The position numbers and the translations under genes were made by a program. Source: Chloroflexia bacterium (GTDB lineage Bacteria; Chloroflexota; Chloroflexia; Thermomicrobiales; CFX8). From it: a stretch of 39,837 nucleotides of DNA. The stretch spans positions 1 to 39,837 of the forward strand of contig JAUIIK010000036.1 of assembly GCA_030431755.1 (NCBI GenBank). The letters run 5' to 3'. How positions within the stretch are numbered: position 1 is the first letter of the stretch; each line of letters opens with the position of its first letter. Of the stretch, positions 3,968-6,816 are shown one piece after another. The notes under the pieces are model-generated. The model was given only the letters and a program-made list of their open reading frames with translations. It had not been told where the DNA came from and made no database searches.

Positions 3968-5047
3968 ATGGTTGAGTTCGATACCGACTTTCCGAGAATC
4001 TCCGACGAGCATCTATCCCAGTTCGTCATCGATGTCTTCACCAGCTATGGAATGCGTCAGTGGGACGCCGAGATCTCGGCCGAGATCCTCGTGGCCTCCG
4101 ATCTGCGCGGCATCGACTCGCACGGCGTGCCGCGGATGGCCTTCTACGTCGACCGGCTCAAGCAGGGCGGCTTCAACCTCGAGGCGGAGCTGGAGGTTGT
4201 CAAGGAGTCGGCCGGCGCGATCCGCTTCAACGCCAACAATGGCTTCGGCCCGCCGATGGCCTACAAGGCGATGGAGCGCTGCCTCGAGAAGGCCCGCGAA
4301 GCCGGCGTCTGCATGGCGTCGGTCGGCCACTCGAACCACTACGGCATCGCCGGGTACTACGCGACGATGGCGCTCGACCACCCTGGCATGGCCGGCATCT
4401 CGATGACTAATGCGACCCCGTTGCTCGTCCCGACGCATGGCAAGGTCGCCCTGCTCTCGACAGCCCCGATCGCCGCCGCCTTCCCGGCCGGGAACGAAGC
4501 TCCGTTTGTCCTTGACGGCGCGACGACCGCCGTCGCCTGGGGCAAGGTCGAGATCGCCCGGCGCAACAAGAAGGCGATCCCTGCCGGCTGGGCGGTCGAC
4601 GAGGAAGGGCTGACGGTTACCGATCCCTTCGACGCTCGCGCCTTGATGCCGCTCGGCGGCGAGCGCGATACCAGCGGCCAGAAGGGCTATGGCCTGTCAC
4701 TGATGGTCGAATTCCTCTGCTCACAGCTCTCGGCCTCGCTCTGGTCGCGCGATGTGACCGGCTCGCGGGTTGAGGAGATCGTGCCCTCCGACACGAGCCA
4801 CGCCTTCATCGCAATCGACATCTCCGCCTTCCGCGATCTGGACGAGTACGCCGCCAGCGCCGACGAGCTGCTCGGCAGCCTGCGGGCGACTGCGCCGGTT
4901 GCCGGCCAGACGCGCGTCATGGTCCCCGGCGACCCCGAAGCCGAGGCCTACGCCGACCGCACCGAACGCGGCATCCCCGTCCACCCCGAGGTCGTCGACA
5001 CCCTCCGCGGCATCGGGACCGAAGCGGGCGTCGCGGTTCCGTTCTGA
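3968..5047 (+). CDS. Ldh family (malate/L-lactate-type) NAD(P)-dependent oxidoreductase
   Basis: This 359-residue protein has the hallmarks of the malate/L-sulfolactate/ureidoglycolate dehydrogenase family (Ldh_2 fold): DLRGIDSHGVPRM near residue 40, the NNGFGPP stretch, the catalytic-region SVGHSNHYGIAGYY, GISMTNATPLLVPTHG, and GYGLSLMVE toward the C-terminus. These soluble enzymes oxidise 2-hydroxyacids with NAD(P); the substrate cannot be read from sequence. I chose the ATG at 3968, preceded by GAGAGAG; a GTG at 3929 is possible but adds residues outside the family pattern. The last 11 codons plus the first base of the stop codon are the left copy of a perfect 34-bp direct repeat (5012-5045), so the 3' end of this gene appears to be an integration site. 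Confidence 0.9.
   Translation: MVEFDTDFPRISDEHLSQFVIDVFTSYGMRQWDAEISAEILVASDLRGIDSHGVPRMAFYVDRLKQGGFNLEAELEVVKESAGAIRFNANNGFGPPMAYKAMERCLEKAREAGVCMASVGHSNHYGIAGYYATMALDHPGMAGISMTNATPLLVPTHGKVALLSTAPIAAAFPAGNEAPFVLDGATTAVAWGKVEIARRNKKAIPAGWAVDEEGLTVTDPFDARALMPLGGERDTSGQKGYGLSLMVEFLCSQLSASLWSRDVTGSRVEEIVPSDTSHAFIAIDISAFRDLDEYAASADELLGSLRATAPVAGQTRVMVPGDPEAEAYADRTERGIPVHPEVVDTLRGIGTEAGVAVPF
5012..5045 (+). repeat. Left copy of 34-bp direct repeat (attachment-like) at the 3' end of the Ldh gene
   Basis: Identical over all 34 bases to 5954-5987. It encodes the last 11 residues of the dehydrogenase and ends one base into its TGA stop. Upstream of the core the two sites stay partly similar, and most differences are transitions. 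Confidence 0.85.
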
Positions 5048-5112
5048 GATGATATGCGGGTGTGAGATCGTATGGTTGTTCGACAAAGGTCCCGATTGGA
5101 TGTGTAGATACA

Positions 5113-5141
5113 TTGACTAAGATAGGTTCCAACATTAGAAT
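5113..5141 (+). promoter_or_regulatory. Strong sigma70-type promoter before the NYN gene
   Basis: TTGACT (5113-5118), a 17-bp spacer, then TAGAAT (5136-5141): each hexamer is one base off consensus. The expected start is near 5148, directly before two stable hairpins. The surrounding 60 bases (5101-5160) contain 24 G/C, against about 70% in the dehydrogenase gene. Confidence 0.75.
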
Positions 5142-5147
5142 TAGCGT

Positions 5148-5209
5148 ATATCGCCCGCACCGCTTCGGTGGTGCGGAAGGAGCCGTCCTTCGGGGCGGTT
5201 TCCGCTTTT
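5148..5209 (+). ncRNA. Structured leader or small RNA: two cUUCGg hairpins plus intrinsic terminator
   Basis: Hairpin 1 spans 5155-5176: a 9-bp stem with one G-U pair, closed by a C(UUCG)G tetraloop. Two bases later hairpin 2 spans 5179-5203: a 10-pair stem with one bulge, again closed by C(UUCG)G, followed by GC-TTTT (5206-5209). A near-consensus promoter ends at 5141, so a transcript of about 62 nt is predicted to stop just before the NYN start codon at 5217. It could be an attenuator leader, or an independent small RNA. The structure is read directly; the role is inference. Confidence 0.5.
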
Positions 5210-5216
5210 CTAGCCC

Positions 5217-5911
5217 ATGAAAGTCAACGTCTATATCGACGGCTTCAATTTCTACTATGGGGCCGTGAAAAAAATACGCAGTACAAGTGGCTCGATTTAC
5301 GCGAATTCTGCGAGCGTTCCCTGCCAGATCACGCTGTTCATCGCATCAAGTACTTCACTGCACAAGTAAATGCTCGACCAAACGATCCTGATCAACCAAT
5401 CAGGCAGCAGACTTACTGGCGAGCACTAGCGACGCTACACCGATTCTATATACACACTGGAAATTTCAGGGAGCGAAAGAAGGTGCTTCCTCTGCACTCA
5501 GATGATCCTCTTGCGCCGTCACCGCCACAACTGAGATTTGTCGAAGCTATGGTATCTGAAGAAAAGGGATCTGACGTCAATCTTGCAACCGAGCTGCTCA
5601 GCGACGGATTTCGCGGCGACTTCGAGGCAGCAGTGATTGTCTCCGACGATTCCGATCTCATTAGCCCGATCAAGGCAGTCCGACAACACCTGCAATTACA
5701 GGTGGCAGTACTGAACCCGCAACTGGAGTTCGATCCACTCACAGGTAAGAAACGACATAGAAAAGATCTTGCTCGTGCGGCTACAGCCGGCAAGCGTCAA
5801 ACTCAGTGGTTCTACGAGCACATCGATCGCAGCTTGCTCGCAGGCTGTCAGTTCCCTGACCCTGTCGTCGACAAACGCGGGCGTCCAATCCACAAGCCAT
5901 CTACTTGGTAG
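5217..5911 (+). CDS. NYN-domain (PIN-like) ribonuclease, reading frame broken in an A7 run
   Basis: The N-terminus MKVNVYIDGFNFYYGAVKK starts at ATG 5217 in one frame. The rest, from NTQYKWLDLREF onward, is in the -1 frame, and the two join at seven consecutive A (5268-5274). Together they form a complete NYN protein of about 231 residues: the first acidic residue in VYIDGFN, a second in EKGSDVNLA, a third pair in VSDDSDL, and the usual tail of the QFPDPV...KPSTW type. NYN domains are PIN-like metal-dependent RNases. The break may be a disabled gene, slippage on the A-run (ribosomal or transcriptional), or a homopolymer sequencing error. No clear Shine-Dalgarno site precedes the ATG; a terminator hairpin does. 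The gene is A+T-richer than its flanks and lies between two 34-bp direct repeats, which suggests transfer. Confidence 0.8.
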
Positions 5912-5923
5912 ATCTACTTCTGT

Positions 5924-5989
5924 TATGCCGCGCTTGTTAACACCTTTCACGGTATCGGGACCGAAGCGGGCGTCGCGGTTCCGTTCTAG
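5924..5989 (+). pseudogene. 3'-terminal fragment of an Ldh-family gene
   Basis: Read in the frame matching the intact gene, this stretch gives a diverged segment (ALVNTFHG versus EVVDTLRG in the full gene) followed by the identical 11 residues and a TAG stop. It looks like the displaced or element-borne end of a related dehydrogenase gene, as left by insertion at a gene's 3' end. No start or other part of such a gene is present. Confidence 0.6.
5954..5987 (+). repeat. Right copy of 34-bp direct repeat (attachment-like)
   Basis: Identical over 34 bases to 5012-5045. It closes the 0.94-kb NYN cassette. The next base begins a palindrome that precedes mntA. Confidence 0.85.
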
Positions 5990-6010: not shown

Positions 6011-6027
6011 GTTGGAATGGAGTGATG

Positions 6028-6333
6028 ATGCTTGTTCAGAGTCGCATTGAAGTCGACGAGGATCAGCTAGCCGCCATATGCCGCAAGTTCCACGTACAGG
6101 AGTTGGCCCTGTTCGGGTCCGTGCTACGTGACGACTTCAGCGACGATAGTGATATTGACATTCTCGTTGAGTATGAGCCATGGGCTCGCATCGGACTATT
6201 TCATCACTTCAAGCTCGAAGAGGCCCTGGCACAGATACTGGGTCGCGATGTCGACCTAGTATCTAAAGGGGGACTCCGATCTATTCTGAAGGACGAGGTG
6301 TTGAGTACGGCTGAAGTTATCTATGCGACGTGA
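6028..6333 (+). CDS. mntA: MntA-type nucleotidyltransferase antitoxin
   Basis: A minimal nucleotidyltransferase (MNT) of about 101 residues. The GSX10DXD motif is complete at 6115-6159 (GSVLRDDFSDDSDID). In the characterised MntA-HepT systems this enzyme neutralises the HEPN RNase by adding AMP to a tyrosine. Three start codons are possible (GTG 6022, ATG 6025, ATG 6028); GGAG at 6019-6022 favours 6028 or 6025. It overlaps hepT by 11 bp, so the pair is translationally coupled. The gene is A+T-richer than the surrounding chromosome. Confidence 0.92.
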   Translation: MLVQSRIEVDEDQLAAICRKFHVQELALFGSVLRDDFSDDSDIDILVEYEPWARIGLFHHFKLEEALAQILGRDVDLVSKGGLRSILKDEVLSTAEVIYAT

Positions 6334-6679
6334 GGCTCTCTACCTATCCGACATCGTTGAAGCCGCTGATGAAATTGCCAAGTATCTCTCCGATACAGAC
6401 GAAACGTCATTTCTCACGAATACAATCAGGCAAAGCGCGGTTGCGTTCCAACTAGCAATCATTGGCGAAGCCGTGGCCAACCTGCCCGACGATCTCCGTA
6501 CGAGGTATCCCGATGTCGAATGGAGGGCTGCACGCGGCCTGCGGAATATCATCGTTCACAGCTATTTTGCGATCAATTGGACGATTATCTGGGAAACTGC
6601 GACGGCAGACGTGCCTCTCCTGCGAGAACAAATAACAGCGATTCTCGACAACGAGTTTCCTGAGATGCCATCGACGTAG
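6323..6679 (+). CDS. hepT: HepT-type HEPN RNase toxin (DUF86)
   Basis: A 118-residue helical HEPN protein of the DUF86/HepT family. The RX4HXY signature is intact (RNIIVHSY, about 6542-6565): Arg and His form the RNase site, and the Tyr is the residue modified by MntA in known systems. The upstream GEAVANLPDDLR helix region also fits the family. The ATG at 6323 lies inside the end of mntA, with no good ribosome site of its own, consistent with coupled translation. One 60-base stretch (6361-6420) has 27 G/C, well below neighbouring genes, so the pair was probably acquired. All key residues of both partners are present, so the system should be functional. Confidence 0.92.
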   Translation: MRREALYLSDIVEAADEIAKYLSDTDETSFLTNTIRQSAVAFQLAIIGEAVANLPDDLRTRYPDVEWRAARGLRNIIVHSYFAINWTIIWETATADVPLLREQITAILDNEFPEMPST

Positions 6680-6816
6680 CAGTTGAGGCTGGTGTCGTTG
6701 TTTGAACGCCTCTCGCGGGCCGGCAAGTGTAGCCTTGACGCGCTATACAGCCGTGGATTTCCAGGATCGGCTAGGATCAGTCGGGTCGATTCGCGGTCGG
6801 TGTGGAGGGGATGTGT

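Follow-up and report, generated by a model that had tools for sequence, protein, structure and literature searches.

A two-hairpin RNA linked to NYN-domain RNase genes: a candidate RNA-antitoxin module flanked by repeats of its target

In excerpts of a published survey (PMC5086642), a type III toxin-antitoxin locus is defined as a ToxN homologue in combination with a terminator and RNA repeats. According to the same excerpts, the RNA repeats measure 36 nt in ToxI Pa, 34 nt in ToxI Bt and 35 nt in antiQ, the surveyed loci were found as structural homologues of ToxN, and pseudo-ToxI is a phage-borne antidote for ToxIN. The AbiF-RCd22 system, as outlined in excerpts of its description (PMC12373285), is composed of a promoter, an RNA with two stem-loop motifs (RF03085), a terminator and the ORF of an Abi_2 toxin, and the RNA antitoxin neutralises the toxin both in cis and in trans. 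Several of the Hma-embedded candidates (HECs) have been tested, HEC-06 being named in the excerpted source (PMC12988326).

The locus described here lies in a contig of a Chloroflexia bacterium, and the window, the whole stretch of DNA that was analysed, comprises 39,837 nucleotides. Positions 5046–5953 would form a mobile module of two components, an endoribonuclease with the NYN fold and a short RNA of two hairpins, the latter probably being a separate transcription unit. By analogy with type III toxin-antitoxin systems and AbiF, we infer that the RNA restrains the NYN protein, most likely as an antitoxin that binds the RNase. The enzyme would be toxic and the unit would behave as an addiction cassette, an abortive-infection cassette or both, with inhibition, toxicity and phage defence as the presumed activities of the RNA–NYN pair. 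Such a unit, itself encoding no recombinase, would enter genomes in a way that leaves tens of base pairs of the target on both sides. We hold this reading, a mobile RNA-antitoxin/NYN-RNase module with target sequence ending on both sides, to be fairly probable. A broader reading, in which a bacteria-wide class of RNA–protein toxin-antitoxin or immune systems is built on the NYN fold as a unit of about 0.9 kb, with an RNA–NYN particle acting in a target-duplicating insertion, appears to us a long shot.

The repeated target is the 3' end of an Ldh_2 malate/L-lactate dehydrogenase gene (3968–5047, forward strand; PF02615, E = 7.4e-112). Positions 5012–5045 and 5954–5987 are identical at 34 of 34 bases, with the starts of the two copies 942 bp apart, and this perfect direct repeat, reported in the initial annotation, is well beyond chance: the longest exact repeat after shuffling of the flanks was 12 bases (20 shuffles), and the local alignment score of the flanks was 76, as compared with a maximum of 24 in 500 shuffles. 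As had been noted, the left copy stops at the first base of the Ldh TGA, whereas the right copy lies in a diverged Ldh-like end and continues into TAG. The repeat is embedded in a 60-nt match of 85% identity, in which the 26-bp upstream extension (5928–5953 on the right side) is less alike, with 17 of 26 bases identical and transitions accounting for seven of the nine differences (manual count). The C-terminal readings of the two ends are LVNTFHGIGTEAGVAVPF followed by a stop for the right copy and VVDTLRGIGTEAGVAVPF followed by a stop for the other. These comparisons indicate, at the level of sequence, that the right copy corresponds to an Ldh 3' coding end that has diverged, in line with the earlier proposal that it comes from a diverged allele of the gene end. 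Allowing up to three mismatches, the 34-mer occurs only as these two copies in the 5.1-Mb assembly (272 contigs), which excludes, for this genome, a wider multi-copy sequence.

The longest ORF between the repeats is that of the NYN gene, and the second longest in the ORF list comprises 115 codons on the other strand. The NYN-domain RNase gene (5217–5911, forward strand) opens with an ATG at 5217 but is not a single intact frame, since the reading frame shifts in a run of seven A (A7, 5268–5274); its matches to PF01936 (28.7 bits) and to the PADLOC model HEC-09 (E = 3e-28) both fall on the downstream frame (ORF 5168–5911). Decay, phase variation or an error of assembly may account for the frame change, and intact homologues exist elsewhere. 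HEC-09, a model that covers the protein only, was matched by the window ORF and by the five homologues scanned, which agrees with the earlier description of a compact defence-type cassette that lies at the end of a gene and brings no recombinase with it.

PF01936 scored above its cut-off in six proteins; NCBIfam yielded no model for the five proteins searched. In an alignment of 64 sequences, D114, D124, D139 and D141 are invariant and D8 is nearly so. The structure of the intact homologue L213, predicted from this alignment with a pLDDT of 96.7, matches the folds of VPA0982 (E = 8.9e-9) and of the NYN domain in MARF1 (E = 1.1e-5); the TM-scores lie around 0.5–0.7, and the rmsd values are large. 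VPA0982 was also the best match in a sequence search against solved structures (E = 0.0054), the remaining matches being weaker and unrelated. These results indicate that the NYN protein has a PIN-like fold with conserved acidic residues, for which RNase activity is predicted.

The two-hairpin RNA (5151–5211, forward strand) sits directly 5' of the NYN ORF, and the same hairpins precede most homologues. It consists of hairpin H1 (5155–5176) and a terminator-like hairpin, H2 (5179–5202), and is preceded by promoter-like boxes, TTGACT-17-TAGAAT (5113–5141, forward strand), which match at 10 of 12 positions and may be its promoter, about one such site being expected by chance in the scanned region. 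Rfam gave no match for the window's RNA; on 11 homologous loci it gave a single tRNA, together with two matches below threshold, both to families unrelated to this RNA. A covariance model, R1, was built from a first set of 86 NYN loci, a few of which are the same place twice; a motif search in these loci led to 65 distinct upstream regions, seven of which were excluded from the RNA alignment as lacking the usual hairpin pair. The 29 training RNAs are half of the 58 sequences cut around predicted hairpins, and only nested pairs were modelled.

In the 29-sequence alignment, 17 of the 18 pairs show changes on both sides, and the covariation was 0.534, as compared with 0.232 for shuffled sequences and at most 0.164 with the partners slid. 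Because the training RNAs had been preselected around predicted hairpins, the fairer tests are those of R1 on controls and on a second set, the named loci. R1 matches the window, which itself supplied a member of the 29-sequence training set, with 52.1 bits (E = 1.5e-10), and none of 26 control stretches, which include two overlapping pairs, fell below E = 0.01 (best, 0.045). The 66 matches taken from 66 of the 80 named loci gave a covariation of 0.602, against 0.212 when shuffled, in an alignment fitted to R1; two of these 66 RNAs reach a likeness of 95% or more to a training sequence, with 0.72 as the median best likeness. The segment 5135–5216 is very stable (energy z = -4.23 against shuffles), but its minimum-energy fold, taken alone, forms an outer helix around H1 and not the consensus H2. 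These results show that the two-hairpin RNAs are a family of real structured RNAs.

The named loci are the 80 that ranked highest among 553 relatives when NYN similarity was the sole criterion; five of them are places of the first set and none is a training locus. An adjacent RNA match below E = 0.01 was found in 75 of the 80, across many phyla. Two of the other five have weak matches that are rightly placed, and one is cut at a contig end. In the first set, R1 matched below E = 0.01 anywhere in the locus in 79 of 86 loci (L037 with E = 0.0081), leaving seven without a match at this level. Most loci carry one two-hairpin unit rather than a tandem array, as does the window, and two RNA copies lie near one NYN gene in 13 of the 86 loci, among them L049, L053, L054, L057, L086, L094, L096 and L107. 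At the named loci, the RNA is upstream on the same strand in 58, downstream on the opposite strand in 15 and upstream on the opposite strand in two. These results show that the RNA and the NYN gene are linked in two main arrangements.

The upstream arrangement would suit a cis-acting leader or attenuator that only sets the expression of the NYN gene, which would then be a single-gene defence nuclease: the RNA immediately precedes the ORF, in the same orientation, in the window as well as in 58 of the 80 named loci, and the second hairpin of the window is terminator-like. However, the RNA is not merely a leader, because in 15 of the 80 it lies downstream of the NYN gene on the opposite strand and is directed at the NYN stop, and the same layout is found in a Mycobacterium prophage (L295), a Paenarthrobacter plasmid (L296) and the first-set locus L062. 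We therefore regard the leader explanation as unlikely. By record title, 14 of the 15 opposite-strand loci belong to actinobacterial groups and one is labelled only 'bacterium', and promoter-like boxes were seen by eye before the opposite-strand RNAs. In a tree of the 80 NYN proteins, the opposite-strand label changes four times, as compared with 14.7 times when shuffled, the other label lumping the upstream loci with the few that lack a match or have an upstream opposite-strand RNA. A single origin of the opposite-strand layout is possible.

NYN matches were obtained in 448 plasmid and three phage records, many of the plasmid matches being distant, and eight plasmid loci and one phage locus were inspected. 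Among the loci searched with R1, a match adjoins the NYN gene in a 3.5-kb Serratia plasmid (L292), in a Leptospira plasmid (L294), in the plasmid L296 and in the prophage L295. The 4.6-kb E. coli plasmid L293 carries 3.5 copies of a 33-nt hairpin repeat, a T-tailed terminator-like hairpin and then the NYN gene, an order that corresponds to a type III toxin-antitoxin locus; R1 left this repeat RNA unmatched, its only match on the plasmid (E = 0.11) lying elsewhere, so that the RNA is placed in the same family by layout. Hairpins and a terminator-like hairpin were seen by eye before the NYN gene in L297–L300. Two of these, the small E. coli and Klebsiella plasmids L297 and L298, have a longer region upstream of the NYN gene, in which a T-tailed hairpin and an imperfect repeat around GCGATTAAGTTACGC were recognised by eye.

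Among 400 genomes of the phylum, the NYN gene was found in 85 and the RNA, at E = 0.001, in at least 67, a lower bound under strict filters. An RNA match at E = 0.1 was found in 19 of 61 relatives, several being too weak to trust. Forty RNA places without an adjacent NYN match, picked by eye, were then compared with controls. NYN remnants follow the RNA in eight of the 40 (score above 53, the second-highest of 80 controls, one control reaching 134), and L172, L201 and L208 show, by eye, a few NYN-like residues after the RNA in addition to these eight. No NYN remnant was found by alignment in 32 of the 40 places, and none by eye either in 29. The frame change of the window together with the eight remnant loci forms a pattern of RNA kept and toxin lost, and in the window a frameshift has probably cost the module its toxin, with the RNA retained.

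This pattern bears on another role for the RNA, as a working partner, either guide or cofactor, that the NYN protein requires for activity rather than an inhibitor. The tight linkage in both orientations and the membership of the protein in the defence-candidate family HEC-09 are what such a partner would lead one to expect. Nevertheless, no variable guide segment is apparent in the two short conserved hairpins, and the RNA persists where the NYN gene is broken, a persistence more readily understood for an antidote. The chance that the RNA is a guide or cofactor appears small to us, and we retain the antitoxin reading.

The RNA may also serve other purposes, since some of the NYN-less copies precede genes that resemble hisF or hflX, or still other genes. 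In the ORF readings, the RNA stands before a hisF-like gene in L190, L192 and L199 and before an hflX-like gene in L191, L193 and L198, these RNAs thus preceding the same genes in related genomes. In L183–L185, L188 and L205, the NYN-less RNA is followed by a short sequence common to these loci. By analogy with pseudo-ToxI, these RNAs could be phage-borne antidotes; L183 has a weak portal-protein match (E = 1e-5), and L184 and L188 match phage families of unknown function. A phage origin of the orphan RNAs in general was not adopted, the weak portal-protein match in L183 being the only one of its kind. At L116, a strong RNA match (994–1053) lies upstream of a DarT/DarG-like toxin-antitoxin pair (by eye), in a genome (G021) with no NYN match.

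As compared with the type III systems ToxIN, CptIN, TenpIN and AbiQ, the window and the upstream-RNA loci share the layout of a structured RNA and a terminator-like hairpin ahead of an endoribonuclease-type gene. The 33-nt RNA repeat of L293 is close to the 34–36 nt of the known repeats quoted in the survey excerpts, and RNA–NYN units occur on plasmids and in a prophage. In contrast, the predicted toxin is NYN/PIN-like (by Pfam, and by the model that matches VPA0982 and MARF1) and not a homologue with the ToxN fold, and most loci have two plain hairpins, modelled as nested pairs, which may be encoded on the opposite strand. Because the toxin fold differs from that of ToxN, the unit is said to work like a type III system and is not filed in a known type III family. 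The likeness to AbiF-RCd22, as far as the excerpts describe it, extends to promoter-like boxes, an RNA with two stem-loops, a terminator-like hairpin and a predicted toxin ORF, whereas the protein family is another and the two-hairpin RNA has no Rfam match. PADLOC HEC-09 represents the same protein family, in a model without the RNA.

Literature searches, in which subscription journals and preprints were mostly outside the coverage, returned no paper for 'NYN' with 'type III toxin-antitoxin' and, among the matches listed, no title or abstract in which an antitoxin RNA is coupled to an NYN nuclease. Current annotation treats the genes of this NYN family as solitary 'NYN domain-containing' proteins or as a solitary defence candidate. 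Should the RNA be an antidote, only one half of a system that occurs in many phyla, and on at least some small Serratia and E. coli plasmids, has so far been recognised, and tests of the protein alone would miss its partner.

Flanking repeats were also sought at the other cassettes. In the first set, 62 of the 65 upstream regions had flanks long enough for the test; six of the 62 have exact flanking repeats of 21–44 bp (44, 38, 34, 28, 27 and 21 bp), and the shuffles (20 per locus) never gave more than 16. An alignment score of at least 37 was reached at 9 of the 62 loci, which represent fewer independent events since L078 and L079 come from one genus, as compared with 6 of 1550 mismatched pairs. 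In the two best mismatched pairs, L032/L037 and L060/L063, a gene end was matched across two loci, and these may be shared sites. The same score was reached at 15 of 77 named loci, again fewer independent events (L279 is the place of L063, and L263, L267 and L270 are close relatives), and by 3 of 1540 mismatched pairs. In the best control, a virtual cassette shifted along the same contigs, target sequence stood on both sides, different at each site, in 15 of 75 real cases and in 3 of 131 shifted ones (Fisher p = 2.8e-5). Most cassettes have no flanking repeat (53 of 62 in the first set and 62 of 77 named loci). A protein-level repeat test was discarded as too noisy, stops having been scored as X. 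These results show that flanking target repeats are general for this cassette type, and they make the movement of recombinase-free defence units directly testable.

The targets read as the 3' ends of oxidoreductase, acetyltransferase, HsdS and HisA genes, as gene starts (L228, L273 and L267) or as non-coding DNA (L243, 140 bp at 91%). Because both the targets and the repeats differ between cassettes, they point to a duplicated target or a recombined allele and not to one att core. The initial annotation had taken the Ldh 3' end for a dedicated att site, and a site-specific integrative element with this end as attB and an integrase acting in trans would explain why the repeat covers the terminus of the gene and finishes one base into the stop codon. 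This suggestion is largely contradicted by the comparison, in which NYN cassettes of the same type sit at unrelated targets with unrelated repeats of their own, apparent gene starts included, and the 34-mer is found nowhere else in the genome; we consider it extremely unlikely. The insertion at Ldh would have left the perfect 34-bp repeat and the diverged 26-bp extension either by duplication of the target at insertion or by recombination between alleles.

Differences between the repeat copies fall mostly at third codon positions in L037 (7 of 8), L063 (11 of 14) and L064 (5 of 7; in total 23 of 29), a bias that fits allele recombination as well as target duplication. For the flanks only, and compatibly with the RNA–NYN reading, a circle may have integrated in Campbell fashion by homologous recombination within a short stretch over which two otherwise diverged alleles are identical. 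Perfect blocks of 27–44 bp at five loci, some of them beside such diverged alleles (L037, L063 and L064), are in keeping with this route, whereas the repeat of L243 lies in apparent non-coding DNA and the coding repeats of L267 (6 of 14) and L228 (4 of 9) have no third-position bias. This route is a possibility to be taken seriously, if on the doubtful side. Restriction-modification units are said, in work by Nobusato and colleagues in 2000 and by Furuta and colleagues in 2010, to insert with long target duplication; the likeness would be that of a selfish defence-type unit flanked by long target repeats, and the difference that the RNA–RNase unit is much smaller.

Ldh homologues are present in 51 of 61 genomes and NYN matches in 10 of the 61, the window's own genome being counted in both; no NYN match was found in the four same-family genomes searched. 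The gene-end repeat test was applied to 19 Ldh loci of relatives, corresponding to 18 places (L004 lies inside L044), with 60 shuffles each. No second Ldh 3'-end copy downstream stood out in these 18 places; L017, with a score of 27, was one point above its 60 shuffles, and the other loci were not above theirs. As to the empty site with a single repeat copy that had been suggested for related genomes, the relatives' Ldh loci have one copy of the gene end, but the nearest full-length Ldh is only 71% identical and has a different neighbour. Because an asparaginase-like gene stands 3' of Ldh in two same-family genomes (ORFs read by eye), gene order, too, changes at the 3' side of Ldh.

The cassette had been described as 0.94 kb of A+T-richer DNA with one gene. 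The low G+C is confirmed, falling to about 0.51–0.54 between about 5.0 and 6.7 kb, but the description has to be amended, since the NYN frame is broken at the A7 run, the structured RNA had been overlooked, and the A+T-richer stretch reaches beyond the right repeat and across a HEPN/MNT pair. A third Ldh-like copy spotted by eye past the HEPN gene (near 6683–6705) was rejected, with a score of 15 against a shuffle mean of 16. The HEPN/MNT pair itself (6025–6679) is toxin-antitoxin-like (NTP_transf_2 and HepT-like), lies directly 3' of the right repeat within the same A+T-richer stretch, and has an MNT component that matches PADLOC PDC-S09.
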